A stretch of DNA of 36,871 nt from Candidatus Rokubacteria bacterium GWA2_73_35 (GTDB lineage Bacteria; Methylomirabilota; Methylomirabilia; Rokubacteriales; CSP1-6): the NCBI GenBank assembly GCA_001790205.1, contig MGBU01000238.1:1-36871 (forward strand), given 5' to 3'. Every line of letters starts with the position of its first letter. Within the stretch, counting starts at the first letter, position 1. A program made the translations under genes and the position numbers. Shown in pieces: positions 4,203 through 27,225 of this stretch. The notes beneath the pieces were generated by a model. It was not told where the DNA came from, did no database searches, and saw only the letters and a list, made by a program, of their open reading frames with translations.

Positions 4203-6524
4203 ATGCTGAACGTCGACAAGCTCTTCCCGCGGCTCTCGATCCGGGCCAAGCTGGTGGTCGCGTTCTGCTTTTTCGGCGTCGTCCCGGTGGCGGTCGTGGG
4301 GGGCTACGGCGCGCTCCATTCCTACATCCTGCTGAACGACGCGACCCGCGACCGCCTGAAGGCCGGCGTCGTCATGAAGGCCGAGGAGATCCAGCGGCTC
4401 CTGCGGGGCGTGCGTGAGGACGTGGTCTACCTGGCCGGGCTGCCGACGGTCGAGGCCCTCGCGAACCTGCCCCCGGGCGCCGGCGCCGAGCGTCACCACC
4501 TGGTCGCCCGGCTCCGCGACGAGTTCCTCTCGTTCTCCCGTGCCAGGAGCGTGTACCACCAGGTCCGGTTCATCGACGAGACCGGGCGAGAGATCGTCCG
4601 CGTCGACTTCGACGGCGAGCGGCCGCACCTCGTCGCCCCCGGGGCGCTGCAGACCAAGCGCGACCGCTACTACTTCACGGAGGCGATGGTGACGCCGCCC
4701 GGGAGTGTCTACGTCTCACCGATGGACCTGAACGTCGAGTACGGCGCCGTCGAGGTGCCGCCCCGGCCGATGGTCCGGTACGCCGTGGCCCTCCGGACCG
4801 CCCGGGGGGCGCCGCGCGGCATCGTCATCCTCAACCTGCACGCGTCGAGGATCCTGGGGCAGGTCCTTGCCCTCGGCCGGGAGCTCGGGAGCGTCTCGCT
4901 GGCCAGCTCGACCGGCCACTATCTCTCCCGCTCGGAGTGGGTCCGCGGGCCGACGGATGCGCCGTTCGCGCGCCGCCCCGAGGGGGTGGCGCAGGACTTC
5001 GCGCCCGCCCTCGCGGCAACCATCCTCGCGGGCACACCCGCGACGATCGCCGAGCCCGGCTTCGGCGGGCGCGTCGTCGCGTTCGCGCCGATCTTCCCGC
5101 GGCCGGACGCCGGCGCCGAGTTCTGGGTGCTCGCGCACGCCTACCGCAAGCGCGAGGTGCTCGCGTCGATCTGGTCGCTGCAGCTCGTGGTCGTGACCCT
5201 CGGCGCGGGCGTTCTGGGCGTGGCCGTCGTGCTCGGCGTCGTCGCCGCCCGTCACTTCACCCGGCCGATCACGGCGCTCAGCACCGCGGCGGAGGCCGTC
5301 GCGAGCGGCAACTACGCGCAGCGGGTCCGGGTCGAGACCAACGACGAGCTGGAGGACCTGGCGCGGCACTTCACCCGAATGGCGACACGGCTCGAGCACC
5401 GCGAGCGCGAGCTCCGGGAGGCGTCCGAGCGCGCGGAGCGGAAGGCGATGGAGTCGCAGGCGCTCTACGGGATCGGCACGGAGGTGCTCGGGCTCCTCGC
5501 GCTGCCGCGGATCCTCGATCGCGTCGCGGACAAGGCCCGCGAGCTGCTCCGCGCCGACGTCGCGATGCTGTGCCTCGCCACGCCGGAGCGGCCGCTCCGC
5601 CTCGGCGCCATGAGCGGCGCCACCGAGGCGCTGGGCCTGGCGCCCGGCGATCGCATCCCGGTCTGCGCGTGCGCGCAGGCCGGCTGCGTCGAGGTGCTCT
5701 GCCCGGCGGTCGTCGGCACGCCGTTCACGACGCACGTCGCCGTGCCGATGAAGAGCCGTGACCGCGTGGTCGGCGACCTCTGCGTGGCCTTCCTCGAGCC
5801 GCGCGCGCTCGGGCCCGACGAGCGGGAGTTCCTGACGGGCCTCGCGAATCTCGCGACGATCGCGATCGAGAAGGCCCGGCTCCACGACGAGGTCACCGAG
5901 CTGACCCGCCTCGAGGAGCGCGAGCGGATCGCCGCCGACCTCCACGACGGCATCATCCAGTCCATCTACGCGGCGGGGCTCGGGCTCGAGGAGTGCGTGC
6001 GTCTGGCCGACGAGGCGCCCGTCGCGATGCAGCGCCGGCTCGAGGAGCTGATCGACGCGCTGAACGTCGTGATCCGCGACGTCCGGAACTACGTCGTCGG
6101 ACTCGCGCCCGAGCGGCTTCAGGACAGAGACCTCTGCCAGGCGCTCGCCGATCTCGCTCGCGGTCTCTCGCTCAACGGGCTCCTCGAGCTCGAGCTGGAG
6201 CTCGAGCCCGGCGTCGAGGGGCGGCTCACGCCGGCGCAGACCGCCGAGCTCTACCACATCTGCCGCGAGGCGCTCACCAACATCGTCAAGCACGCGCGCG
6301 CCTCGCGCGTCGTCCTGAGCGTCGCGCGCGACGGCGACGCGCTCCGCGTCACCGTCGAGGACGACGGCGTCGGCTTCGAGGTCCCCGCGCGCCGGCAGGC
6401 CGGGCGGGGCCTGCGGAACATGACGGATCGGGCCCGCCGCCTCGGGGGCGACCTGGCGGTGGAAAGCCTGCCGGGCCGGGGCACGCGCATCACCGTGGCG
6501 ATCCCAGCGGAGGTCGCGGCGTGA
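4203..6524 (+). CDS. NarX-type membrane sensor histidine kinase (HAMP-GAF-HisKA_3)
   Basis: A 773-aa sensor. Transmembrane helix 1 is at about residues 16-38, a large periplasmic Cache-like domain at 39-325, TM2 at about 325-347, then HAMP, a GAF domain (about 420-560), a HisKA_3 dimerisation domain with phospho-acceptor His581 in ADLHDGIIQ, and a HATPase domain with N-box EALTNIVKHA and glycine boxes DDGVGF and GRGLRNM. This is the NarX/NarQ/LiaS architecture. The GAF domain contains four closely spaced cysteines, VCACAQAGCVEVLC (Cys488, 490, 495, 500), which could hold a metal or Fe-S cluster. GGAGG lies upstream of the ATG. Its stop overlaps the GTG of the regulator gene. The ligand is unknown; nitrate, oxygen or redox state are possible. 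Confidence 0.9.
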   Translation: MLNVDKLFPRLSIRAKLVVAFCFFGVVPVAVVGGYGALHSYILLNDATRDRLKAGVVMKAEEIQRLLRGVREDVVYLAGLPTVEALANLPPGAGAERHHLVARLRDEFLSFSRARSVYHQVRFIDETGREIVRVDFDGERPHLVAPGALQTKRDRYYFTEAMVTPPGSVYVSPMDLNVEYGAVEVPPRPMVRYAVALRTARGAPRGIVILNLHASRILGQVLALGRELGSVSLASSTGHYLSRSEWVRGPTDAPFARRPEGVAQDFAPALAATILAGTPATIAEPGFGGRVVAFAPIFPRPDAGAEFWVLAHAYRKREVLASIWSLQLVVVTLGAGVLGVAVVLGVVAARHFTRPITALSTAAEAVASGNYAQRVRVETNDELEDLARHFTRMATRLEHRERELREASERAERKAMESQALYGIGTEVLGLLALPRILDRVADKARELLRADVAMLCLATPERPLRLGAMSGATEALGLAPGDRIPVCACAQAGCVEVLCPAVVGTPFTTHVAVPMKSRDRVVGDLCVAFLEPRALGPDEREFLTGLANLATIAIEKARLHDEVTELTRLEERERIAADLHDGIIQSIYAAGLGLEECVRLADEAPVAMQRRLEELIDALNVVIRDVRNYVVGLAPERLQDRDLCQALADLARGLSLNGLLELELELEPGVEGRLTPAQTAELYHICREALTNIVKHARASRVVLSVARDGDALRVTVEDDGVGFEVPARRQAGRGLRNMTDRARRLGGDLAVESLPGRGTRITVAIPAEVAA

Positions 6525-7171
6525 GGGCCCGGCGCGTCGGCGTGCTCATCGTCGACGACCACGAGGTCGTGCGCCTCGGCCTGCGCTCCCTCCTGGGCCG
6601 GGAAAAGGCGATCGAGATCGTGGGCGAGGCGGCGACGGCGGAGGAGGCGGTCGCGCAGGCCGAGCGCCTCCGGCCGACGGTCGTCGTCATGGACGTGCGG
6701 CTCCCCGACCGGAGCGGGATCGAGGCGTGCCGCGAGATCCGGGCGGCGGCGCCGGACACGCGGGTGATCATGCTCACGTCGTACGCCGACGACGAGGCCG
6801 TCTTCGCCTCGATCCTCGCCGGCGCCTCGGGCTACCTGCTCAAGCAGGCAGGGGGACTCGACCTCGTGCGCGCCATCGAGCGGGTCGCCGACGGCCAGTC
6901 GCTGCTCGACCCCGGGGTGACGGAGAAGGTTCTCGAGAAGGTCAAGCGGCTGGCGAGCGGCCAGCCCGACGAGGTCACGAGTCTCTCGCCCCAGGAGCAG
7001 AGGGTCCTCGCCCTCGTCGCCGAGGGCAAGACCAACAAGGAGATCGCGACCGCCCTGGGGCTCAGTGACAAGACCGTCAAGAACTACCTCTCCAACGTCT
7101 TCGACAAGCTCCACCTCTCGCGCCGGGCGGAGGCCGCCGCCTTCTTCGCCCGCCGCCGCCCCGCCGGCTAG
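6521..7171 (+). CDS. NarL/FixJ-family response regulator
   Basis: A 216-aa regulator, cognate to the preceding kinase. The receiver domain has acidic residues in IVDDHE, phospho-acceptor Asp58 in VVVMDVRLPD, a conserved Thr/Ser in MLTSYADD and Lys in GYLLKQ. The C-terminal LuxR-type helix-turn-helix reads LSPQEQRVLALVAEGKTNKE and then DKTVKNYLSNVFDKL. GTG at 6521 overlaps the kinase stop as GTGA; the longer ORF from 5993 is a shadow inside the kinase. Translational coupling and domain types make this a NarXL-like pair. Plausible targets are the respiratory operons immediately downstream and the divergent Nxr-like operon, but no heptamer sites were verified. Confidence 0.93.
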   Translation: MRARRVGVLIVDDHEVVRLGLRSLLGREKAIEIVGEAATAEEAVAQAERLRPTVVVMDVRLPDRSGIEACREIRAAAPDTRVIMLTSYADDEAVFASILAGASGYLLKQAGGLDLVRAIERVADGQSLLDPGVTEKVLEKVKRLASGQPDEVTSLSPQEQRVLALVAEGKTNKEIATALGLSDKTVKNYLSNVFDKLHLSRRAEAAAFFARRRPAG

Positions 7172-8075: not shown

Positions 8076-10262
8076 ATGGGCGGACGCGCCTCTGTCGGTG
8101 GGCTGATCGCCGCGTTCGGCTTCGTCCTCGCCGTCGGCGCCGCGCGGGCCGAGCCGCTCGCGCCGCTGCCGCCGCTCCCGGCGTCCCCGCCCGAGCAGGT
8201 GGCGCTCGGGAGGCTCCTGTTCTTCGACACGCGCCTGTCGGGCGACGCCTCGATCTCGTGCGCCTCCTGCCACGACCCCAGGAAGGCGTGGGGTGACGGC
8301 AAGCCGCTCTCGACCGGCTACCCCGGCGCCGAGTACTTCCGCAACGCGCAGACCCTCCTGAACGCGGCGCACTACCGGCGCAGCTACTGGGACGGGCGGA
8401 TGGACGGCCGCGACCTGCCGACGCTCGTCCGCGACCACCTGACCGAGCCGGCCCTCATGCAGGTCGACGGCCGGCTCTTCCCCGAGCGCCTCAAGCAGGT
8501 GCCGGAGTACGACGCGATGTTCCGGAGGGTCTTCGGCGGCGAGCCCTCGTTCGGGCGCTCGCTGAACGCGATCGCGGCCTTTGTCCGGACCCTCACCTCC
8601 CGCGGCGCCCCGCTCGACCGCTACCTCGAGGGTGACACCGCCGCGCTGAGCCCCGCGGCCCGGGACGGGTTGGCGTTGTTCCAGGGCAAGGCGGGCTGTC
8701 TCCGGTGCCACGACGGCCCGCTGCTCTCGGACCAGAAGTTCCACGCCCTCGGCGTCCAGGACAGCGCCGCGGTCTTCGGCGAGCCCCTGCGGCACATCAC
8801 CTTCCGGTGGTTCATGAAGACGCTCGGCACGCCGAACTACACGAATCTCAGGGAGGACGTGGGCCGGTACGCCGTGACCAAGGAGCCGCCGGACCGCGGC
8901 AGGTTCAGGACGCCGTCGCTCCGCGATGTCGCGCTGACGGCTCCGTACATGCACAACGGGACCCTCGCGACGCTCGAGGAGGTCGTGGAGTTCTACAACC
9001 GGGGCGGCGGCATCCATCGGAACAAGAGCCCGCTGCTGGCACCGCTCGGGCTCGGTGCCGCCGAGAAGAAGGCACTGGTGGAGTTCCTCGAGGCGCTGAC
9101 CGGCGAGCCCGTCGTCGTCGACCCGCTGGCGCCGCCCGAATACAAGCTCCGGGCTCTCGGCAAGGGCTCGCCCGCTCCCGCCGGGCTGGTCGCGGCCTCC
9201 ACGGGCACCGCGCAGTCCGGGAAGTTCCGGGCGCTCGGGCCGCTCGGCCCCGTGCCCGTGCCCCGGGACAACCCGATGTCGGATGCGAAGGTGGAGCTGG
9301 GCAAGTTCCTGTTCTTCGATCCGCGGCTCTCCGGCGACGTCTCGACCCCCTGCGTCGCGTGCCACAACCCCGAGGCGGGCTGGGGCGACGGCAGCGACGT
9401 CTCGCGCGGCTATCCCGGGACCCAGCACTGGCGCAACTCGCAGACGGTCCTGAACGCCGCGTACTACTTCAAGCTCTTCTGGGCCGGCGAGGTGACGAGC
9501 CTCGAGGCCCAGGCCGTCGCCGCGGCGACCGGCAACGTCGCCGGCAACGGCGACCCGATGATGATGGAGGAGCGCCTGCGCCAGATCCCGGAGTACGTCC
9601 GCCGCTTCAAGGCCGTGTTCGGCACCGAGCAGCCGAGGATCATGGACGCCTGGAAGGCGATCGCCGCCTTCGAGCGGACGCTCGTCTCGAAGCCCGAGCA
9701 GGTGCCCTTCGACCGGTTCGTGAAGGGCGACCCCAAGGCGATCACCGACGAGGCCAGGCGCGGCCTCGCGCTCTTCCTGGGCAAGGCCGGCTGCATCCAG
9801 TGCCACAACGGTCCGCTCCTCTCCGACGACGACTACCACGCCCTTGGCGTGCCGAAGAACCCGGTGTTCGAGGAGGACCCGCTCCGGCAGATCACGCTCC
9901 GCTTCCAGCACGTGATCCGCGGCGTCCCGGAAGAGCTCTACCGGGTCGCCGACCGAGATCTCGGCCTCTACTACACGACCAAGCGCGAGGCCGACAGGGG
10001 CAAGTTCAGGACCCCGGGGCTGCGGGAGCTCAAGTACACGGCGCCCTACATGCACAACGGCGCGTTCTTCACGCTGGAGGAGGTGCTCGACTTCTACGAT
10101 CAGGGCGGCGGGAACGACGCGAACAAGAGCCCGCTCCTCAGGCCGCTCAAGCTTACGGCGCAGGAGAAGAAGGACCTCCTGGCCTTCCTCCTCTCGCTCT
10201 CGAGCGACCAGCCGATCGTCGTGCCGGCGCCCCAGCTGCCCGAGTACGCGGTCGTGAAATAG
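8076..10262 (+). CDS. Tandem (fused) di-haem cytochrome c peroxidase / MauG-like protein
   Basis: A 728-aa periplasmic protein made of two complete di-haem peroxidase modules. The signal peptide ends ARA-EP near residue 25. Module 1 has CASCH (62-66) and CLRCH (208-212) and ends PYMHNGTLATLEEVVEFYNR. Module 2 has CVACH (426-430) and CIQCH (573-577) and ends PYMHNGAFFTLEEVLDFYDQ. The haem spacing is nearly identical (146 and 147 residues), showing an internal duplication. Ordinary CcpA/MauG proteins are about half this length. In known idr clusters two separate peroxidases, IdrP1 and IdrP2, accompany the Mo and Rieske subunits; here they appear as one chain. AGGAGG precedes the ATG, and the Rieske gene starts 12 nt after the stop. 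Confidence 0.9.
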   Translation: MGGRASVGGLIAAFGFVLAVGAARAEPLAPLPPLPASPPEQVALGRLLFFDTRLSGDASISCASCHDPRKAWGDGKPLSTGYPGAEYFRNAQTLLNAAHYRRSYWDGRMDGRDLPTLVRDHLTEPALMQVDGRLFPERLKQVPEYDAMFRRVFGGEPSFGRSLNAIAAFVRTLTSRGAPLDRYLEGDTAALSPAARDGLALFQGKAGCLRCHDGPLLSDQKFHALGVQDSAAVFGEPLRHITFRWFMKTLGTPNYTNLREDVGRYAVTKEPPDRGRFRTPSLRDVALTAPYMHNGTLATLEEVVEFYNRGGGIHRNKSPLLAPLGLGAAEKKALVEFLEALTGEPVVVDPLAPPEYKLRALGKGSPAPAGLVAASTGTAQSGKFRALGPLGPVPVPRDNPMSDAKVELGKFLFFDPRLSGDVSTPCVACHNPEAGWGDGSDVSRGYPGTQHWRNSQTVLNAAYYFKLFWAGEVTSLEAQAVAAATGNVAGNGDPMMMEERLRQIPEYVRRFKAVFGTEQPRIMDAWKAIAAFERTLVSKPEQVPFDRFVKGDPKAITDEARRGLALFLGKAGCIQCHNGPLLSDDDYHALGVPKNPVFEEDPLRQITLRFQHVIRGVPEELYRVADRDLGLYYTTKREADRGKFRTPGLRELKYTAPYMHNGAFFTLEEVLDFYDQGGGNDANKSPLLRPLKLTAQEKKDLLAFLLSLSSDQPIVVPAPQLPEYAVVK

Positions 10263-10274
10263 GAGGCGCACCCC

Positions 10275-10826
10275 ATGAGCCCGCACGAACACTCCGCCGA
10301 GCGGCCGTGCCTGTCGCGGCGCGCCTTCCTCCTGTCGGGCGGCACGGCGGTCACCGTGACGCTCCTCGACGGCCCCTTGAACCGCGCCTTCGGCCAGGGT
10401 GCCGCGCTCAAGCGGGCCAGCTACCCCGCGCGGCGGATCGGCCGGATCAGCCAGCTCGCGGTGGACCGGCCCGTGCCGTTCCAGTACCCGTGGAAGGACG
10501 CCTACTCCGCGAACATGCTCGTGAAGCTCGGCGTGCCCGCGGGCGGCGGCGTCGGCCCGGCCCGGGACGTCGTCGCGTTCTCGACGCTCTGCACCCACAT
10601 GGGCGGGCCGCTCGCCGGCCAGTACCGCGGCCAGCACAAGGTCGTGGGGCCCTGCCCCCTCCACCTCACCACGTTCGACCTCACCAAGCACGGCATGGTC
10701 GTCTCCGGCCAGGCCACCGAGACCCTCGCCCAGGTCGTGCTCGAGGCGCGCGGCGACGAGATCTGGGCCACCGGCGTCATGGGGCTCATCTACGGCTACC
10801 ACTCGAACCTGGCCGGGCGGGCCTGA
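10275..10826 (+). CDS. Tat-exported Rieske [2Fe-2S] subunit (AioB/IdrB-like)
   Basis: A 183-aa small subunit. The twin-arginine motif SRRAFLLSGG (about residues 14-23) predicts Tat export. The Rieske cluster ligands are Cys106/His108 in CTHMGG and Cys127/His130 in CPLHLTTFDL. The extra cysteine pair that makes the disulfide in bc1-type Rieske proteins is absent, as in some AioB proteins. Residues around CPLHLTTFDL are the AioB/IdrB form. The partner molybdopterin subunit is encoded 13 nt downstream and has no signal of its own, so co-export as a folded complex is expected. AGGAGG starts inside the previous stop codon region. The role is electron transfer between the Mo subunit and a periplasmic cytochrome or cupredoxin. 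Confidence 0.9.
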   Translation: MSPHEHSAERPCLSRRAFLLSGGTAVTVTLLDGPLNRAFGQGAALKRASYPARRIGRISQLAVDRPVPFQYPWKDAYSANMLVKLGVPAGGGVGPARDVVAFSTLCTHMGGPLAGQYRGQHKVVGPCPLHLTTFDLTKHGMVVSGQATETLAQVVLEARGDEIWATGVMGLIYGYHSNLAGRA

Positions 10827-10839
10827 GGAGGCGAGCCAC

Positions 10840-13509
10840 ATGGCGCAGGGCGTGACCCCCTACTACCTGCCGGAGGACCGGATCCCGCTCCCGCCGGCCG
10901 ACGCGAAGGTGACGACGACGGCGTGCGACTACTGCATCGTCGGCTGCGGCTACAAGGTCTACACCTGGCCGCTCGGCCGCGAGGGCGGCCCCCGCGCGAG
11001 CCAGAACGCGCTCAGGGCCGAGTTCCCGGCGAAGGTGAACAGCGGCAAGTGGATCAGCCCGAACATGCACAACCTCGTGATGGTGGAGGGCCGGCCCCAT
11101 CACGTCCTCGTGGTCCCCGACGGCGACGCCAGGGTCGTGAACGTCGGCGGCAACCACTCGATCCGCGGCGGCGTGCTCGCGCAGAAGTGCTTCAACCCGA
11201 ACAAGCCCTCGCAGGAGCGGCTGCTCTACCCGATGATGCGGGTGCGCGGGACACTCCAGCCGGTGTCGTGGGACACGGCGCTCGACGTGATGGCCGGTGT
11301 CTCCCGTCACGTCCTCGACCGGCACGGCGAGCACGCGTGGGCGATGAAGACCTACTCCTACCAGTATTTCGAGAACACGTACGCGATCAGCAAGCTCGCG
11401 TTCGGCGCGATCGGCACGCCGGCCTACGCGCCTCACGACAAGCCGGGTCCCGGGCCCGACACGCCGGGACTCGACTGGGCCGGGATCGACGCCTTCAGCG
11501 CCTCGTACGAGGACTGGGGCATGGCCGATGTGATCTTCTTCTCCGGGGTGGACCCCTACGAGACCAAGTCGGTCCTGTTCACGTCCTGGATCATGCACGG
11601 CCAGAACCCTGACAAGAAGCTGATCTTCGCGCTGCCACGCAAGACGATGGGCGTCGCCTGGGGCGAGCAGCGGGGCGGGCTCTTTCTCCAGGTGATCCCC
11701 GGCACCGACACCGTGCTCCACCTGGCGCTGATCCGGATCATCCTCGAGAACGGCTGGGAGGACCGGGACTTCATCGACAGGTGGGTCGCCAATTCCTGGG
11801 AGATCGACGCCGGCATGGGGCGCGGCACCCGGAACACGCCCTGGCAGTGGTTCACGACGTGGGGACGCTACGGGATCGACTTCGCTGGGTACAGGAAGTG
11901 GATCCTCGGCTACAGGTGGGCCGAGCTCGACACCGCCGCTCGGCTCACGGGCGTGCCGGCCGCGTCCATCAGGCAGGCGGCCGAGATGCTCGCCAGGCCG
12001 CGGCCGGACGGCTCGCGCCCCAGGACGTCCTTCATGCTCGAGAAGGGCAACTACTGGTGCAACAACCTCGGCAACACGACGTCGTATGCGGCGCTCGGGC
12101 TCGTCTGCGGGGCCGGCAACCGGCCGGGCCGCGTGATCTCACGCGGCGGCGGCCATCAGCGGGGCTGGATGGGCGGGGCCGGCTACCCGCGCGGCCTCTC
12201 GCCCGAGAAGTATCCCGGGCGGCGAAAGAAGGAAATCGACCTCGACCGCTGGGTTGCCGAGGGCAACGTGCGCTTCGCCTGGGTGATCGGGACCACCTGG
12301 CTGCAGGCCATGGCCGCCTCGCAGGAGCTGATGGACGTCTTCCACCGGCTCACGCGCCAGAGCCCGCACCAGATCGCGAGCACGCGCCCGGCGGCCGCGA
12401 TCGAGAGCCTCACGCGACGCGCGGACTCGGGCGGCATGGTGGTCGTGCACCAGGACATCTACCCGGTGGACCCGATCGGCACCCAGCTCGCCGACCTCGT
12501 CCTGCCGGCCGCCACGTGGGGCGAGGAGGACTTCACCCGCTGCAACGGCGAGCGCCGCCTCCGACTGTACGCGCAGTTCAACGACCCGCCCGGCGAGGCC
12601 AGGCCCGACTGGCAGATCATCGCCGGGTTCGCCAGGAAGATGGGCTTCGAGGGCTTCGACTGGAAGGACTCGAACGAGATCTTCGAGGAGGCCGCGCGCT
12701 TCGGCCGGGGCGGCGTGCTCAACTACCACCCGCTCGTCGTGAAGGCCAAACAGGAGGGCAGGCGCGCCCACGACCTGCTGCGGGCGTACGGCACCGAGGG
12801 CATCCAGACGCCGATCCGGATGGTCGGCGGCAAGCTCGTCGGCACCAAGCGCCTGCACGACTCGACGCTCCAGCTCGGCACCCCGGAGGGCCCCACGACC
12901 CATCCGAAGTGGCTCACGGCCTTCGGCACCCATTCGGGGAAGGCCGTGCTCCTCAGGAGCTACTGGGAGGATTTCCAGGACTTCTACGAGGCGGTCAAGC
13001 CCACCGGTGACGAGCTGTGGGTCACCAACGGACGGATCAACGAGACGTGGCAGTCGGGCTACGACGACTTCCGCCGCCCCTACATCATGGCCCGGTGGCC
13101 CTCGATGTTCGTCGAGATGCACCCGGATGACGCCAGCGCGCGGGGCATCGAGAGCGGCGACCTCGTCGCCGTCGAGAACGACCGTGTGCTCGTGCAGACG
13201 GGCGGCTTCCAGGGGGTGGAAGAGAAGGAGCTCACGTTCACCGAGCTCCGCCGGGCCGGCCACATCAAGACGACCACCGCGAGCTTCACGGCGGTGGCCG
13301 TCGTCTCCGACGCGGTGCGCCGGGGCGTGGTCTGGGCGCTCATGCTCTGGCCGGGCTCGCCCGCCAACTCGGTCGTGCCCCAGGTGCCGGACCCGGTGAC
13401 GAACCGGGCGCGCTTCAAGCTCGGCAAGGGCCGGGTCACGAAGCTCGGCGAGAGCCCGCACAAGCGGTCGTTCACGACGATGTCGCTCAAGCCCCGGCCG
13501 ATCGTGTGA
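10840..13509 (+). CDS. AioA/IdrA-type molybdopterin oxidoreductase large subunit (iodate-reductase-like)
   Basis: An 889-aa member of the arsenite-oxidase branch of the DMSO-reductase family. The N-terminal Fe-S motif is C-x2-C-x3-C (Cys29, 32, 36 in CDYCIVGCGYKVYTWP), as in AioA. A fourth cysteine is not at the usual place, but one occurs nearby in AQKCFNPN. Further AioA-like segments are SYEDWGMADVIFFSG, TDTVLHLALIRIILENGW, GGHQRGWMGG and ITNGRINETWQSGYDD-like sequence near the C-terminus. Arg and His in SRGGGHQ match AioA Arg419/His423, but the region that holds AioA His195 and Glu203 has neither residue. No signal peptide; export with the Rieske subunit is likely. With two peroxidase modules and a Rieske protein beside it, an IdrA-like function (iodate or a related oxyanion) is more likely than arsenite oxidation. 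The substrate is inferred. Confidence 0.85.
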   Translation: MAQGVTPYYLPEDRIPLPPADAKVTTTACDYCIVGCGYKVYTWPLGREGGPRASQNALRAEFPAKVNSGKWISPNMHNLVMVEGRPHHVLVVPDGDARVVNVGGNHSIRGGVLAQKCFNPNKPSQERLLYPMMRVRGTLQPVSWDTALDVMAGVSRHVLDRHGEHAWAMKTYSYQYFENTYAISKLAFGAIGTPAYAPHDKPGPGPDTPGLDWAGIDAFSASYEDWGMADVIFFSGVDPYETKSVLFTSWIMHGQNPDKKLIFALPRKTMGVAWGEQRGGLFLQVIPGTDTVLHLALIRIILENGWEDRDFIDRWVANSWEIDAGMGRGTRNTPWQWFTTWGRYGIDFAGYRKWILGYRWAELDTAARLTGVPAASIRQAAEMLARPRPDGSRPRTSFMLEKGNYWCNNLGNTTSYAALGLVCGAGNRPGRVISRGGGHQRGWMGGAGYPRGLSPEKYPGRRKKEIDLDRWVAEGNVRFAWVIGTTWLQAMAASQELMDVFHRLTRQSPHQIASTRPAAAIESLTRRADSGGMVVVHQDIYPVDPIGTQLADLVLPAATWGEEDFTRCNGERRLRLYAQFNDPPGEARPDWQIIAGFARKMGFEGFDWKDSNEIFEEAARFGRGGVLNYHPLVVKAKQEGRRAHDLLRAYGTEGIQTPIRMVGGKLVGTKRLHDSTLQLGTPEGPTTHPKWLTAFGTHSGKAVLLRSYWEDFQDFYEAVKPTGDELWVTNGRINETWQSGYDDFRRPYIMARWPSMFVEMHPDDASARGIESGDLVAVENDRVLVQTGGFQGVEEKELTFTELRRAGHIKTTTASFTAVAVVSDAVRRGVVWALMLWPGSPANSVVPQVPDPVTNRARFKLGKGRVTKLGESPHKRSFTTMSLKPRPIV

Positions 13510-13547: not shown

Positions 13548-15542
13548 ATGACGCCTCGAGCGCGGGAGCGCCCGCGCGGCCGGACGCGCCGGACGGCCGC
13601 GAGCCTCGTCGCCTTCGCCTGCGTCCTGGCCGCGGCCGTCGCCCTGGCGGCCGGCCCGCCCGCGGCGGCCGCCGGCGGGGCCGCGGCGGCCGAGTACCGG
13701 AGCTTCTACGGGACCAGCGCGCGCCTCGTCGTCTGGATCGTCGCCGAGCTGCACCTGATGTTCGGCGCGTTCGTCCTCGGCGTGCCGATCTTCGCCTCGA
13801 TCGTCGAGGTCATCGGCTGGCGCGGCGGCGACCCACGCTACGACCGGCTCGCCCACGAGTTCACGGGGCTCCTCGCGGCCGCGTTCTCGACGACGGCGGC
13901 GTTCGGCGGGCTCCTGGTGTTCGCGCTGATCGGCCTCTACCCGCGGTTCATGACCTTCCTGACCTCGGTCTTCCACGAGACCTACTACGTCTACGCGCTC
14001 CTGTTCTTCGCCGAGGGCTTCACCCTCTATCTCTACTACTACGGCTGGGACCGGATGCGCGGGCGCCTGAAGGGGCTCCACGTCGCCCTCGGGATCCTCC
14101 TGAACGTCTGGGGCACGGTGCTGATGCTGATCGCGAACGCGTGGGTCGCCTACATGATGGCGCCCACCGGGATCGACAGGAAGACGCTGGAGTTCGTGGG
14201 GACCACCTGGCAGGCGGTGGCGAACCCTCTCTGGATCCCGCTCGCGATCCACCGCGTGCTCGGCAACGTCGCGTTCGGCGGCTTCATCGTCGGCGCGTAC
14301 GCGGCCGTCAGGTTCCTGGGCGCGCGCACCGAGGCGGCGCGGGCCCACTACGACTGGATGGGCTACGTCGGCAACTTCGTGGGCCTCGGCGCGCTGATCC
14401 CGCTGCCCTTCGCGGGCTACTACCTGGGCCGGGAGATCTACTCCACGAGCGCGGTCATGGGCAACAACATGATGGGCGGCGCCTTCTCGTGGACCTTCAT
14501 CCTCCAGGCCGTGCTGATCGGGATCCTGTTCATCGGCGGCAACTACTATCTCTGGATCGGCATGGGCCGCATCGAGGGCGCCGAGCGCTACCGGCCGTGG
14601 GTCAAGTACATCAACCTGGTGCTCCTCCTCTCCTTCGCCGTCTGGCTCACGCCGCGCAACGTCCCGCTGACGGGCGAGGAGCAGACGGCCCTGGGCGGCC
14701 AGTTCCACCCGCTGCTCAAGTACCTCGGGCTCATGTCGGCGAAGAACGCGGCGGTGAACTTCATCATCCTCAGCACGTTCTTCTCCTTCCTCCTCTACCG
14801 CCGCGGCAACAAGGGACGCCCGCGCCCCTTCGCCGCGCACGGGCGCGTGGGCCTGCTCGTGCTGACCGCGGGCGCCGCCGTCGCGATCTCGATCCTCCTC
14901 TGGTACGCGCGCGCCCTGCTCACCCTCGACCCGAAGACGCTCGACCTCACCGCGGCCCAGGCCGGCTACTTCAAGCCGCCCGCGTACCTCCTGCTCGGCC
15001 AGGCCGTCATGGTGCTCGTGACCGCGACGCTCGCCCTCCGCGATCGGGGGACGCTCGCCCAGGCGCTCTTCTTCGCCTCCACGACGCTGGCGTCGGTCTT
15101 CGTGCTCGGCGTCTACGGCTTCGTCGTCATGGAGCGCGCGAACCCCTTCCTCCGGAACGTGGCGGTCGCCCAGTGGCTCATGGTGATGGTGTGCCTCCTC
15201 TGGAACACGGTGCTCGATGTCCTCGTGTTCCGCGGCGCCGAGACCGCGGGCGGCATCCGCTGGGGCCGGATGCCCGCGCGCTCGCAGTACACGCTGATTC
15301 TCCTCTGCGTGACGATCGTGATGCTGATGGGGCTCATGGGCTTCATCCGCTCGGGCCTGCGCGAGGACTGGCACGTCTACGGCGTCCTCCAGGACACCTC
15401 GCCGTGGGCCTGGACCCCGACCACCGCGTACATGACCCGGGTCGTCGGCGCGATCGTGCTCGGCTTCCTCGGCCTGGTGGCCTTCGTCTTCTGGCTCGCG
15501 GGGCTCGGCGAGAAGAAGGACCACGGCGGGGCGCCCGCGTGA
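13548..15542 (+). CDS. Extended CydA-like (cytochrome bd superfamily) membrane protein, no CydB
   Basis: A 664-aa integral membrane protein with about 15 hydrophobic segments, against nine in classical CydA. The N-terminal half resembles CydA: His in ELHLMFGAFVLG (like haem-ligand His19), FFAEGFTLYLYYYGWDRM (like the helix ending GWDRL), LIANAWVAYM (like VANGWM) and His in LAIHRVLGNVAFGG (like His186). The periplasmic Q-loop with the quinol-binding Lys/Glu of E. coli CydA is not recognisable, and the position of E. coli Glu99 reads Val. No cydB follows; instead two multihaem cytochromes c are encoded in overlap. This suggests a bd-family oxidase or oxidoreductase that exchanges electrons with cytochrome c, as proposed for bd-like oxidases of Nitrospira-type bacteria. 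Catalytic activity is unproven. Confidence 0.8.
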   Translation: MTPRARERPRGRTRRTAASLVAFACVLAAAVALAAGPPAAAAGGAAAAEYRSFYGTSARLVVWIVAELHLMFGAFVLGVPIFASIVEVIGWRGGDPRYDRLAHEFTGLLAAAFSTTAAFGGLLVFALIGLYPRFMTFLTSVFHETYYVYALLFFAEGFTLYLYYYGWDRMRGRLKGLHVALGILLNVWGTVLMLIANAWVAYMMAPTGIDRKTLEFVGTTWQAVANPLWIPLAIHRVLGNVAFGGFIVGAYAAVRFLGARTEAARAHYDWMGYVGNFVGLGALIPLPFAGYYLGREIYSTSAVMGNNMMGGAFSWTFILQAVLIGILFIGGNYYLWIGMGRIEGAERYRPWVKYINLVLLLSFAVWLTPRNVPLTGEEQTALGGQFHPLLKYLGLMSAKNAAVNFIILSTFFSFLLYRRGNKGRPRPFAAHGRVGLLVLTAGAAVAISILLWYARALLTLDPKTLDLTAAQAGYFKPPAYLLLGQAVMVLVTATLALRDRGTLAQALFFASTTLASVFVLGVYGFVVMERANPFLRNVAVAQWLMVMVCLLWNTVLDVLVFRGAETAGGIRWGRMPARSQYTLILLCVTIVMLMGLMGFIRSGLREDWHVYGVLQDTSPWAWTPTTAYMTRVVGAIVLGFLGLVAFVFWLAGLGEKKDHGGAPA

Positions 15543-16525
15543 GACGGCCGTTCCTCGGCGTCGCCGTCTTCACGGTCGTCGTCGTGCTCGCGATCGCGGC
15601 CGTCGGCGAGATGATCACGCGCGTCTCCGGCGAGGGCGGGCGCCGGCCCGCCGTGGCCGTCAGCGCCGGGACCATCACCCCCGAGGCGGGCGAGACGGTC
15701 TTCTGGGGCAAGGGCAAGTGCTCGACCTGCCATGCCGTCGGCACGCGGGGCGGCGCGGTGCGCGGCCCCAACCAGGGCGAGGGGGGGCCGCTGGGCTTGC
15801 CGATCGGCGCGCGCGCCGGGGAGCGGGCCCGCGAGCGGGCGAGGGCGACGGGCAAGCCGTACACGGCGACGGACTACCTCGTGGAGGCGCTGGCGGACCC
15901 GGGCGCCTACGTCGTGCAGGGCTACAAGAACGAGATGCCGAACCCGTTCCAGCCGCCGATCCGCCTCGGCTCCGACGAGGTCCGCGCCGTGATCGCGTAC
16001 CTCCAGTCCCTCGGGGGCACGGTGGATCTCGCCGCCATCAAGCTCCCCGCCGGGCTCGAGGCGAAGTCCCGCGCGGCGGCGGAGTGGAAGCCCTACGTCG
16101 CCGGCGACAGCGAGAAGGGCGAGAAGCTCTTCTTCGACGTCGACTCGAGCGCGGGCTGCGGCAAGTGCCATCGCGTGGGCACGCGCGGCGGCAGCGTCGG
16201 ACCCGAGCTGACCACGGTGGCCGGCACGCGGGATCCCGTGTTCATCGTCGAGTCGATCCTGGAGCCCTCGAAGGTGATCGCCTCGGGCTACGAGACCGTG
16301 CTGATCATCACGAAGAGCGACCAGTACGTCACCGGCATCGTCAAGAGGGAGGACGCGACGACGGTCGAGGTCGCCGACAGCCAGGGGAGGATCCAGCAGG
16401 TCGCCAGGGCCGACATCAAGCAGCGGACGCCCCAGACCGTCTCGATGATGCCGGGGAACTTCAAGGAGATCCTCACGGTCGAGGAGTTCCACGACCTGCT
16501 CGCGTTCGTCCTGGGGCTCCGGTGA
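15539..16525 (+). CDS. Membrane-anchored di-haem cytochrome c with TIGR02603-like domain
   Basis: A 328-aa protein. One N-terminal transmembrane anchor (about residues 5-23) is followed by a first cytochrome c domain with CSTCH (61-65) and a second with CGKCH (207-211). The region from GPELTTVAGTRDPVFIVESI through SMMPGNFKEILTVEEFHDLL matches the putative haem-binding domain TIGR02603 known from planctomycete cytochromes. GTG 15539 overlaps the cydA-like stop as GTGA; the longer ORF from 14141 is a shadow of the cydA-like gene. The next gene overlaps its stop in the same way. The tight coupling argues that this is a structural partner of the CydA-like protein, probably carrying electrons to or from it on the periplasmic face. 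Confidence 0.87.
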   Translation: MRRPFLGVAVFTVVVVLAIAAVGEMITRVSGEGGRRPAVAVSAGTITPEAGETVFWGKGKCSTCHAVGTRGGAVRGPNQGEGGPLGLPIGARAGERARERARATGKPYTATDYLVEALADPGAYVVQGYKNEMPNPFQPPIRLGSDEVRAVIAYLQSLGGTVDLAAIKLPAGLEAKSRAAAEWKPYVAGDSEKGEKLFFDVDSSAGCGKCHRVGTRGGSVGPELTTVAGTRDPVFIVESILEPSKVIASGYETVLIITKSDQYVTGIVKREDATTVEVADSQGRIQQVARADIKQRTPQTVSMMPGNFKEILTVEEFHDLLAFVLGLR

Positions 16526-18855
16526 GTCGGCCGCGCCGCCTGCCCCTCTTCTGGAACGTCGTCATCGCGCTGGCGATCGTCTGGGCGCTCCTCGCGTGGG
16601 GCCTGCCCTGGCTCGGGATGTGGGTGACGGGCGGGCCGCGGCCGCTCCCCGTGCCGGGCGTCGTCCGCCTGATCTACCTGCTGCTCGCCCTCGTCGGCGC
16701 GGCGGTCTACGTGACGATCAGCGACGAGTCGCTCCGCGAGTTCCTCCGGCCACCGGTCGCGGGCTTGCGCGGGCCCGACCCGGCCGCGCCGCACGCGCGC
16801 TGGCGCAGGCTCGCGCGCCTGGTCGTCCTCGTCCTCCTTCCGCTGCTCGCGGGCGCCGCCGTCTACGCCCGCACGGCGCCGACGGCCCAGAGCCCGACCA
16901 TCTTGCGGATCCAGCACCCGACGATCCCGGGGGCGTACGAGAAGCGCTCGAACCCGTTCCGTGGGCGGTCCGACGAGGCCGCGATCCTCGCCGAGGGGCG
17001 GGAGATCTTCCAGATCAACTGCCGCCCCTGTCACGGCGACGCCGCCGACGGCGCCGGGCCGATGGCCTGGGGCTTTCGGCTCAAGCCCGCGAATTTCACC
17101 GACGCCGGCACGATCGCCACCGTCGTCGAGTCGTACGCCTTCTGGCGCGTCACCGTGGGCGGGCCCGGCCTGCCGCCGGAGGCGACGCCGTGGGACTCGG
17201 CGATGCCGACCTGGCGCCACGACCTCACCGACGAGCAGAAGTGGAAGGCCGTGATGGCCGCCTACGACCTGGCCGGCGTCGAGCCGCGCAAGCCGGAGAG
17301 GCTCGGCTGGCTCCATCCGTCCGGCGCCTGGGCGCAGACGACGCCCGCGGGGACGCCCGAGGGCCTCGCGCGCGGCAAGCGGATCTACGCGAAGCGCTGC
17401 CAGGCCTGCCACGGCGAGAAGGGCGACGGGCTCGGCCCCGTGGCGCCCTACCTGAACCCGCGGCCGCGCGACTTCACGCTCGGCGCGTTCAAGTTGAGGA
17501 CCACGGGCTCGGGCGAGCCGCCGACGGACGAGGACCTCTTCCGCGTCGTGACGCGCGGCGTCCCCGGCACCGCGATGTCGGGCTGGACGACGCTCTCGGC
17601 CGACGAGCGCTGGCAGGTGATCGCATACCTCAAGACGTTCAGCACCGCGTTCCAGGAGCCGCGCACCGTGGTGAGCGCGGGGCGCGGGCCCGCGGCTTCG
17701 CCGGAGCTGCTCGCCCGGGGCCGGCAGGTCTACCAGAAGGCCAAGTGCTGGGAGTGCCACGGCGAGAGCGGCCGGGGCGACGGGCCCGCGGCGCCGACCC
17801 TGAAGGACGACGCGAAGAACACCATCCGCGCCGCCAATCTCCAGAAGGGCTGGCTCATGAAGGGCGGCCGCGAGGCCGCGGACATCTTCATGCGCTTCTC
17901 CACCGGGGTCGACGGCACCCCCATGCCCTCGTACGCCGACTCGCTCTCCGAGGACGAGCGCTGGGCCCTCGCCCACTACGTGACGTCGCTCCAGACGACG
18001 GAGGAGCCGGGCGCGGAGGTCGTCCTGCGGGCCACCCGGGTCGCGGGCCCATTGCCCGGCGACCCCGCCGATCCCCGCTGGCGGGCGCAGCCCTTCCTCG
18101 CCGTGCCGCTCGCGGGCCAGGTCCTCGCCAGGCCGCGCTGGCAGAACCACGCCGTCGACGTCGTCAGCATCCGCGCCCTCTACGACGAGCGCGCGATCGC
18201 GTTCCTGCTCGAGTGGGACGACCGCTTCGAGGACGTCGAGCACCGGCCCGGTCCCGAGCCGGCGCTCGCCCCGTGGACCTACCCCAGGATCGACCTCGAC
18301 CCCGAGCGCCGGGAGCGGCTGCGGGACGCGATCCGGCTCCAGTTCCCGGTGGCGATCCCGACGGGGCCCGAGCGCCCGCACTTCTTCCTCGGGAACCCCG
18401 GGCGCCCGGTCGCGCTCTGGCACTGGCGCGCCGACGCGAACGGGCGGGGCGACGCCGCCGTCGTCAAGGAGCGCGCCGAGGGGTGGGAGAAGCCCGTCGT
18501 CGAGCTGCCCGCGGCGAGCCAGGACGTGAGCGCCCGCGGGGCGTGGAAGGACGGCCGCTGGCGCGTCGTCCTGACGCGCCCGCTCGGGCCGAAGGACCCC
18601 GCGAGCGACGTGGCCTTCGAGCCCGGCCGCCTCGTGCCCTTCGCGGTCCACGCCTGGGACGGCTCGAACGGCGAGCGCGGGCTCAGGATGTCGCTCTCGT
18701 CCTGGAGCTTCGTCGTCCTCGACGCGCCCCCGCCGGCGACCGTCTACGTCTACCCGCTGCTGGGCGTCGGCCTCGTCGGCGTCGCGGAGTGGTGGCTCGT
18801 CAGGCGCGTGCGGCGGCGGGCGCCTCAGGCCGACGCGGCCGCGCGCGACGCGTAG
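16522..18855 (+). CDS. Tri-haem cytochrome c fused to EBDH-gamma-like haem b domain
   Basis: A 777-aa protein. Three N-terminal hydrophobic segments (about residues 8-30, 45-65, 95-117) are followed by three cytochrome c domains with CRPCH (167-171), CQACH (293-297) and CWECH (409-413). A C-terminal region of about 240 residues (RVAGPLPGDPADPRWRAQPF onward, with SIRALYDERAIAFLLEWDD and RMSLSSWSFVVL) matches the gamma subunit fold of ethylbenzene dehydrogenase/DMS dehydrogenase. A C-terminal membrane helix ends in RRVRRR. GTG 16522 overlaps the previous stop. The minus-strand gene 25537-27225 has the same fusion with two haems, so the two operons share a subunit type. The tail overlaps the convergent gene by 31 bp. 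Likely a wire between periplasmic enzymes and the membrane protein. Confidence 0.87.
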   Translation: MSRPRRLPLFWNVVIALAIVWALLAWGLPWLGMWVTGGPRPLPVPGVVRLIYLLLALVGAAVYVTISDESLREFLRPPVAGLRGPDPAAPHARWRRLARLVVLVLLPLLAGAAVYARTAPTAQSPTILRIQHPTIPGAYEKRSNPFRGRSDEAAILAEGREIFQINCRPCHGDAADGAGPMAWGFRLKPANFTDAGTIATVVESYAFWRVTVGGPGLPPEATPWDSAMPTWRHDLTDEQKWKAVMAAYDLAGVEPRKPERLGWLHPSGAWAQTTPAGTPEGLARGKRIYAKRCQACHGEKGDGLGPVAPYLNPRPRDFTLGAFKLRTTGSGEPPTDEDLFRVVTRGVPGTAMSGWTTLSADERWQVIAYLKTFSTAFQEPRTVVSAGRGPAASPELLARGRQVYQKAKCWECHGESGRGDGPAAPTLKDDAKNTIRAANLQKGWLMKGGREAADIFMRFSTGVDGTPMPSYADSLSEDERWALAHYVTSLQTTEEPGAEVVLRATRVAGPLPGDPADPRWRAQPFLAVPLAGQVLARPRWQNHAVDVVSIRALYDERAIAFLLEWDDRFEDVEHRPGPEPALAPWTYPRIDLDPERRERLRDAIRLQFPVAIPTGPERPHFFLGNPGRPVALWHWRADANGRGDAAVVKERAEGWEKPVVELPAASQDVSARGAWKDGRWRVVLTRPLGPKDPASDVAFEPGRLVPFAVHAWDGSNGERGLRMSLSSWSFVVLDAPPPATVYVYPLLGVGLVGVAEWWLVRRVRRRAPQADAAARDA

Positions 18856-25536: not shown

Positions 25537-27225
25537 TCATGGTTCGAGCACGAGGTCCTGCCAGATCGTGACGGACTTCTTGCCGTCCCTATCCCCGGCG
25601 CTGCCGTTCCAGACCGCGAAGCCCACCGAGACCGTCGTGCCCGGCGTCAGCGTGACGGCGCCCGCGCCGCGGCCGGCGAGGTCGCGGCGGAACATCACGC
25701 GGTACGTCCCGGTCGCGTAGACGCCGCGCGCGTCCACCGCCTGGTCGCCGCGCGAACGCGCGCGGAGGGTGCCGAACCCCTGGGCGACGAGGTCCTCCGC
25801 CGGGCTCCGTCGCGAAGGGTCGGAGACGATGTTGCCGGCGCCCCAGCCGGTCACGAACGTCGGATCCGAGTCGAGCGTCAGCGCGTGCCGCGTCGGCTGC
25901 TCGTACGGCGCCACCAGGAGGTTCGGATAGGAGTCGATACCGAGGTTCGGGTAGACCTTCTCGAGATCCTGGAAGGCGGGTTCGAGATCCGCCTGCCGCT
26001 CCGACTTCCACATCCAGATGTTGACGAACCGTTCCCGCTCCCCCATCGCGAAGAACGGCGGATCGGCGGTCGGCGAGAACTGAACGGCCACCGCGTCGCG
26101 GAAGTCCTGGGGCCGCATCGCGGTGTGGTCGTGTGTGGCGTCCGACCACATGAGGAGGAGCGCCACTTGCTTGCCGTCGTGCAGCGCGCGCACCGTGACC
26201 TCCTCCGGCCGGTCCGTCCGCCACCAGAGCGGCATCAGGTGGAGGTTCACGGGCTGGGCCCGGCGCCACGCCCCGGAGTCCGGATGCTCGGGCAGCCGGT
26301 CGACCCGCCGCGCGAGGATACGGAACTTCCGCATCTCGGCGCGCGCGCGCTGCGCGTCGCTCGACCAGGACCGGATCAGGTTCACGAGGTGCCACGCCTC
26401 GTCGCCGTACGCCCAGTCGCTCATCGGCATCGGCGTCCCCGGCAGTCCCGCCACGATCCGTCGATAGAGGTGGACGGGGTCCGGGGCCCCCTTGAAGACC
26501 CCCAGCGTCAGGTCCCGCGGGCGCGTCGGATAGCCCAGATCGTCCTTCTGGGCCTCGGCACCGTCGCCCTTGCCCGTCGGACCGTGGCACGAGGCGCACG
26601 CGTCGGCGTACCGATCGAGCGCGAGCTTGCGCGCCGCAGCGGTGAACGCCGGCGCGGGCGGCACGCGGATCAGGCCCGTGCCGGCCTGGCCTTCGCCCTT
26701 CGGATCAGCCGCGGCGGCGAGGATCCAGGGCTTGGTGGCGAAGCTCTTGATGTAGTGGACGAGCGCCCAGCGCTCCTCCTCCGACAGGTGGCCCCACGAG
26801 GGCATCGCCGACCCGGGCATGCCGCGGGAGATGGTGAGGTAGAGATCCTCGTCGGTCGGCACGCGCTCCCACGTCGACACCAGGCGGTAGTTGCCGGTCG
26901 TGAAGTCCCGCGGCTTCGGGTAGAGCAGGTATGCGGCCTCGCCGGCGCCGCGTCCGGTCGTGCCATGACAGGCCGCGCACTGCCGGTCGTAGACGCGCTT
27001 GCCGAGGGCCAGGAGCTCCGGTGACGCGGGCCGACCGAGCATCGGCGTCAGCCTGACCGGGAGCGGCTGGCCGGTGCCGGCGACCACCGCCGCCGCGACG
27101 GGCGTGCCCGCCGCCGGCCCGGCGGGGCCGGGCGAGGCGGGCTGGGACGTCGTACACCCGGTGCCGCCGAGCAGCGCCGAAGCGAGAACCGCGGCCGGGA
27201 CTCCGTGGCGCAGGCGCACACCCAT
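25537..27225 (-). CDS. Di-haem cytochrome c fused to EBDH-gamma-like haem b domain (Nxr-like gamma subunit)
   Basis: A 562-aa exported protein, first gene of the operon. The N-terminal hydrophobic stretch ends LLGGTGC, an imperfect lipobox, so it may be a lipoprotein. Two cytochrome c motifs follow, CAACH (83-87) and CASCH (210-214). Residues about 295-560 form an ethylbenzene-dehydrogenase-gamma-like domain (NLHLMPLWWRTDRPEEVTVR, VALLLMWSDATHDH, FRDAVAVQFSP), which binds haem b in known members. The start is ATG 27225 with GGGAGG 10 nt upstream. In the Nxr/Ser/Ebd group, gamma subunits accept or deliver electrons at the outer membrane-side end of the complex; here two c haems extend the chain. 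It is a paralogue of the plus-strand gene at 16522. Confidence 0.88.
   Translation of the reverse strand: MGVRLRHGVPAAVLASALLGGTGCTTSQPASPGPAGPAAGTPVAAAVVAGTGQPLPVRLTPMLGRPASPELLALGKRVYDRQCAACHGTTGRGAGEAAYLLYPKPRDFTTGNYRLVSTWERVPTDEDLYLTISRGMPGSAMPSWGHLSEEERWALVHYIKSFATKPWILAAAADPKGEGQAGTGLIRVPPAPAFTAAARKLALDRYADACASCHGPTGKGDGAEAQKDDLGYPTRPRDLTLGVFKGAPDPVHLYRRIVAGLPGTPMPMSDWAYGDEAWHLVNLIRSWSSDAQRARAEMRKFRILARRVDRLPEHPDSGAWRRAQPVNLHLMPLWWRTDRPEEVTVRALHDGKQVALLLMWSDATHDHTAMRPQDFRDAVAVQFSPTADPPFFAMGERERFVNIWMWKSERQADLEPAFQDLEKVYPNLGIDSYPNLLVAPYEQPTRHALTLDSDPTFVTGWGAGNIVSDPSRRSPAEDLVAQGFGTLRARSRGDQAVDARGVYATGTYRVMFRRDLAGRGAGAVTLTPGTTVSVGFAVWNGSAGDRDGKKSVTIWQDLVLEP

Follow-up and report, generated by a model that had tools for sequence, protein, structure and literature searches.

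Does the large molybdenum enzyme encoded at this locus oxidize arsenite, as the family model that recognizes it would suggest, or does it act on another oxyanion? The uninterrupted open reading frame (ORF) of 889 codons lies in the window, i.e., the whole stretch of 36,871 nucleotides from Candidatus Rokubacteria bacterium GWA2_73_35 that was analyzed, and its product scores 452.9 bits (cut-off 359.05) with TIGR02693, the model for the large subunit of arsenite oxidase. It is the single TIGR02693 match over the cut-off in a genome that is ~77% complete, so that gene absences carry little weight. A chlorite-dismutase-family match elsewhere in this genome is weak and partial. A first-pass annotation had suggested that the protein lacks the arsenite-binding His and Glu of AioA and that a different substrate is likely, with an Idr assignment gaining support if IdrA shares the Pro/Ala pattern of the loop. 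Taking clade, operon and pocket columns together, the ORF is very probably idrA, encoding the catalytic subunit of a predicted periplasmic respiratory iodate reductase of a Rokubacteria-type Methylomirabilota, which best explains the locus as a whole. The coordinates of all features are collected in Table 1.

Table 1. Genes and residues of the idr locus, with positions in the window (row counts refer to the IdrA and AioA sequences of the column alignment).
Feature	Position	Strand	Basis or conservation
Fused IdrP2-IdrP1, 728 aa, two CCP/MauG di-haem peroxidase domains, one Sec-type signal	8076..10262	+	Pfam CCP_MauG, two stretches
IdrB, Rieske [2Fe-2S] small subunit, twin-arginine leader SRRAFLL	10275..10826	+	TIGR02694, 124.1 bits (cut-off 95.65)
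idrA (IdrA, 889 aa, Mo-bisMGD catalytic subunit)	10840..13509	+	TIGR02693, IdrA clade, AlphaFold fold
Ser173 = AioA funnel-mouth Asp169 (NT-26)	11356..11358	+	IdrA: Ser in 85 of 85 rows covering this column; AioA: Asp in 11/11
Mo-facing loop, IGTP to SYED, inside the 889-aa ORF	11410..11514	+	Reads IGTPAYAPHDKPGPGPDTPGLDWAGIDAFSASYED
His199, H of HDKP = AioA His195 (A. faecalis) / His199 (NT-26)	11434..11436	+	His in 86/86 IdrA
Asp207 = AioA Glu203 (A. faecalis) / Glu207 (NT-26)	11458..11460	+	Asp in 84/86 IdrA; Glu in 11/11 AioA
Lys402 = AioA Lys413 (NT-26)	12043..12045	+	Common to both classes
Arg435 = AioA Arg419 (A. faecalis) / Arg447 (NT-26)	12142..12144	+	Arg in 86/86 IdrA
His439 = AioA His423 (A. 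faecalis) / His451 (NT-26)	12154..12156	+	His in 86/86 IdrA
Arg441 = AioA funnel-mouth Glu453 (NT-26)	12160..12162	+	Arg in 85/86 IdrA; Glu in 10/11 AioA
CydA-like membrane cytochrome	13548..15542	+	Pfam Cyt_bd_oxida_I, aa 58-294; 38 bases past idrA
Di-haem cytochrome c, after the CydA-like gene	15539..16525	+	2 CxxCH; start inferred
Tri-haem cytochrome c, C-terminal ethylbenzene-dehydrogenase-type (EB_dh) domain	16522..18855	+	3 CxxCH; start inferred

The gene directly 5' of idrA, separated from it by a 13-base gap, encodes the Rieske subunit with a Tat leader that is expected of an IdrB. Both expected peroxidases, IdrP1 and IdrP2, are encoded as well, as two domains fused in one ORF with four CxxCH motifs (aa 62, 208, 426 and 573). 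In the relatives G012, G009 and G052, as well as in Azonexus, each domain matches an ORF of its own, the two being neighbors. The junction in the window (about 9130-9220) has the sequence LGKGSPAPAGLVAASTGTAQSGKF, whereas G012 has LGKN followed by a stop and then a new start with a signal peptide ending in LLVGTVTAQSGK. This comparison indicates that, in fusing, IdrP2 and IdrP1 lost the stop between them and most of the second (IdrP1) signal peptide. Similar single-ORF versions occur at five further loci (L056, L091, L094, L096 and L100) from Pseudomonadota, Planctomycetota and Myxococcota, and no mention of the fusion was found in the literature on idr. Two peroxidase domains lie upstream at 65 of the 66 testable IdrA loci versus neither of the two AioA loci, and no peroxidases were seen at annotated AioA neighborhoods. 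Further upstream of the idr operon (4203-7168), the window has genes for a HAMP- and GAF-containing sensor histidine kinase and for a response regulator of the LuxR type, in place of which the idr loci of Azonexus and Azoarcus DN11 have a sigma-54 two-component pair.

Downstream of idrA, a CydA-like gene and two cytochrome c genes follow. The CydA-like gene also adjoins idrA in two other genomes (G012 and G036), representing at least the first genes of the module. The module is not specific to idr, as the same three genes are present without idr in five genomes of the phylum (G021, G037, G003, G032 and G033; loci L119-L123), and idr may therefore have joined an existing cytochrome module. The idr cluster of Denitromonas iodatirespirans IR-12 has no quinone oxidoreductase (PMC8692401), which makes the CydA-like/cytochrome c genes a candidate electron supply to Idr. 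The opposite strand of the window (25537-27225, -) encodes another EB_dh-domain cytochrome c protein, to which the C-terminal part of the tri-haem protein is related.

Among solved structures, the AioAs of NT-26 and A. faecalis are closest in sequence, and the stretch from IGTP to SYED aligns with both without gaps, as was correctly noted in the first-pass annotation. In A. faecalis AioA, H195, E203, R419 and H423 hold three substrate-site waters (PMC3758308, which also gives the Cys21/Cys24/Cys28/Ser99 motif of the [3Fe-4S] site); the NT-26 equivalents are His199, Glu207, Arg447 and His451 (PMC10448176). With residue 103 as the start of the segment in the 1G8K chain, the H of HNRP is residue 195 and the E of NSEC is residue 203. 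As a control on numbering, the [3Fe-4S] ligands Cys21, Cys24, Cys28 and Ser99 of 1G8K come out as three Cys and one Ser (C29/C32/C36/S107 in the window protein), and the eight NT-26 residues named in PMC10448176 all agree with the NT-26 sequence with zero offset. In this gap-free register, His195 corresponds to the His of HDKP itself and Glu203 to Asp207, so the claim that both residues are missing is wrong. It is true that neither His nor Glu follows HDKP, but the residues taken as replaced were not His195 and Glu203, since their register was mistaken; the His appears to have been sought too far downstream, and the next downstream His of AioA (His205) is kept in only seven of the 11 AioAs. 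An equivalent His and Glu supplied from a shifted loop had been named as refuting evidence, and this comes out half true: the His is there, an Asp takes the place of the Glu, and no shifted loop is involved. The counterparts of Arg419 and His423 were rightly recognized as kept (R435 and H439).

The inner pocket thus reads H/D/R/H versus H/E/R/H in AioA, with one of four positions differing, acid for acid; the His195/Glu203/Arg419/His423 set by which an AioA is recognized is retained in the window protein except for Glu203, which is Asp207. The putative acid/base pair is retained in the alignment across IdrA as a whole, as Asp for Glu203 next to an invariant His195. The only members of the IdrA clade without Asp in this column are L101 (Ser) and L015 (Ala), both on long deep branches. 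The suggestion of a less polar pocket holds for the change from AYNS to GPGP, but not for Asn196, which becomes Asp, nor for the Glu203 column, which is still acidic. Ala199 of AioA, at what we take to be the usual Mo-ligand position, is Gly203 in the window and S/G/A/Q/M across IdrA. The window protein therefore combines the [3Fe-4S] motif with the lack of a conserved Mo ligand, as expected of an IdrA; IdrA is also listed as having no amino-acid ligand to Mo (PMC10100899).

Homologues were gathered from plasmids, from genomes of the phylum and from one genome-collection scan, and were aligned with 11 AioA-like sequences. Column counts compare 86 distinct IdrA rows with 11 AioA rows, the latter being a small sample of which two are divergent. 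Twelve columns are fixed within each class but differ between IdrA and AioA, and several of these are among the second-sphere residues listed for NT-26 AioA (PMC10448176). To judge from these columns, the strongest difference between the classes lies not in the inner pocket but at the funnel entrance, where Asp169 is replaced by Ser and Glu453 by Arg (NT-26 numbering). The window follows IdrA in both, with Ser173 and Arg441 instead of the two funnel-mouth acids expected of an AioA. In addition, Arg201 of NT-26 AioA corresponds to Lys in 79 of the 86 IdrA rows. Exchanging two acids for Ser and Arg would suit iodate, an anion, in place of As(OH)3, which is neutral. Note that one peptide pattern of the genome scan includes Ser173-Tyr174, which could bias selection. 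Yet, the conservation of Ser173 is no search artefact, since 23 IdrA rows were matched solely by the other pattern and Ser occurs in all IdrA rows covering the column. Neither pattern includes the Asp207 or the Arg441 column.

The loop sequence itself varies across IdrA. The full GPGPDTPGLDW/IDF loop is limited to the Methylomirabilota-Nitrospinota group in alignment and tree, whereas a GPG start extends beyond these two phyla to some further deep branches. Proteobacterial IdrAs, verified ones included, have loops such as HDKASATND or HDKCSATND. For instance, the IdrA of IR-12 (L038), whose idrA knock-out loses growth on iodate (PMC8692401), reads HDKASATNDATGLDDAG in this region, and that of Roseovarius azorensis (L062), identified in an iodate-reductase active band (PMC11445184), reads HDKPMRGPDATGLDDAG. 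As far as the aligned sequences indicate, the Pro/Gly loop is a mark of the Methylomirabilota/Nitrospinota branch and not of IdrA at large. The proposed check, whether IdrA shares the Pro/Ala pattern, accordingly gives a mixed outcome. Such a branch-specific loop could mean that the IdrA homologues of Methylomirabilota and Nitrospinota have shifted to another oxyanion (e.g., bromate, chlorate or selenate) through the Pro/Gly Mo loop and the LDW/IDF motif. The GPGPDTPG loop with an aromatic residue after LD/ID occurs in this branch only, we found no assayed IdrA of either phylum in the literature, and the cytochrome module stands beside idr in three genera while it was unseen at most other idr loci. 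We nonetheless consider this shift improbable, as the columns typical of the IdrA class are kept, inner quartet and funnel mouth included, and the idrP2-P1-B-A layout is unchanged.

Placing the protein in its family addresses the name that NCBIfam would give it. A maximum-likelihood tree of 96 rows separates 85 IdrAs from the 11 AioAs by a branch with an SH-aLRT of 100 and places the window protein inside IdrA, where it groups with six Methylomirabilota IdrAs (SH-aLRT 98) and then with five Nitrospinota-type ones (100). As the tree was a quick one and has long branches joining at its AioA root, the deep branch order is not relied on. An arsenite oxidase with an unusual pocket would account for the TIGR02693 score above the cut-off and for the shared cofactor motifs and fold: the first 11 PDB matches of the AlphaFold model (24-row alignment; pLDDT 82.4, pTM 0.87) are all AioA (TM 0.75-0.84), and no IdrA structure is among the matches of the model. 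The pLDDT of this model falls below 50 at residues 438-440, which is too low for reading pocket geometry. It is, however, very improbable that a protein outside the AioA clade, with 48-81% identity to IdrA-clade proteins versus at most 32% to plasmid AioAs, is an AioA, all the more so as its operon carries a peroxidase where the AioA loci examined have none and as Asp169, Glu207 and Glu453 of AioA are replaced by Ser, Asp and Arg. The same family also includes genomes with true AioAs (HNRPAYxSE, Asp169, Glu453), namely G014 and G007 (loci L023 and L024), so the phylum holds both enzymes. In NCBI records, the IdrA-clade protein at L013 (5983-8661) and those of other plasmid records are named 'arsenate reductase (azurin) large subunit', the product name of TIGR02693. 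As NCBI's annotation gives this name to an IdrA-clade protein of Azonexus, TIGR02693 does not separate AioA from IdrA. Finally, an open and apolar pocket without the arsenite-binding His and Glu deserves next to no credence: no His or Glu follows HDKP and AYNS of AioA has become GPGP, but the gap-free register, fixed by Cys21/24/28 and Ser99, identifies the His of HDKP as His195 and pairs Glu203 with Asp207.

The assignment as IdrA therefore agrees with the earlier suggestion of a different substrate and an Idr system in its outcome, but not in the reason given for it, the loss of His and Glu. As an IdrA, the protein would reduce iodate. The Tat signal on IdrB would co-export IdrA and IdrB, and electrons may pass from a c-type cytochrome via the Rieske center of IdrB and the [3Fe-4S] cluster of IdrA to Mo-bisMGD. 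Iodate would enter the funnel past Ser173 and Arg441, where AioA has two acids, and be deoxygenated near His199, Asp207, Arg435 and His439 at a Mo that has no conserved side-chain ligand. The fused IdrP2-P1 might then remove peroxide or another oxidant arising en route to iodide, a role proposed in literature. A broader and rather doubtful proposal is twofold: the choice between arsenite and iodate would be set mainly by funnel-mouth charge and the one-carbon trim from Glu203 to Asp around a shared inner Mo site, and Rokubacterial Idr would be coupled to a CydA-like quinol/cytochrome module of its own; we found no description of such a dedicated quinol input in any idr operon.

Left uncorrected, the register error would have pointed to a new enzyme. 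Its correction also yields a practical tool: a test of three columns (Asp169/Glu207/Glu453 in AioA, NT-26 numbering, versus Ser/Asp/Arg in IdrA) separates arsenite oxidases from iodate reductases, a split not made by TIGR02693, a widely used family model. If the funnel-mouth switch sets the substrate, As(III) oxidation versus iodate reduction on one Mo scaffold would be testable by two to three point mutations.

Rokubacterial idr was known before, as idr has already been listed in Rokubacteria and NC10 (PMC8692401) and reported in Ca. Methylomirabilis iodofontis (PMC10989891); new here are minor features, i.e., the fused IdrP2-P1 and the adjacent cytochrome module. Among known systems, the idrABP1P2 clusters of IR-12, Roseovarius azorensis and Azoarcus sp. 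DN11, compared here on the first two, resemble the window in clade, length and cofactor motifs, in the inner pocket H/D/R/H with a Ser/Arg funnel mouth, and in a Rieske IdrB with two di-haem peroxidases upstream. They differ in that the window IdrA is 60-62% identical to those of IR-12 and R. azorensis, that its GPGPD loop replaces ASATND/MRGPD, and that in the window IdrP2 and IdrP1 are fused and idrA is directly followed by CydA-like and cytochrome c genes. The idr loci of other Methylomirabilota share the phylum, the gene order P2-P1-B-A, one branch of the tree and the loop; the closest relatives compared are 78-83% identical and, unlike the window, have IdrP2 and IdrP1 in separate ORFs where both halves are on the contig. 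AioA (A. faecalis 1G8K/8CFF; NT-26 4AAY) has in common with the window protein the fold (TM 0.75-0.84), the [3Fe-4S] site, a Rieske partner, the lack of a conserved Mo ligand residue, and His195, Arg419, His423 and Lys413 (NT-26). It is set apart by an identity of ~30%, by the changes of Glu203 to Asp, Asn196 to Asp, Asp169 to Ser and Glu453 to Arg in the window, and by loci that, where examined, have no peroxidases.
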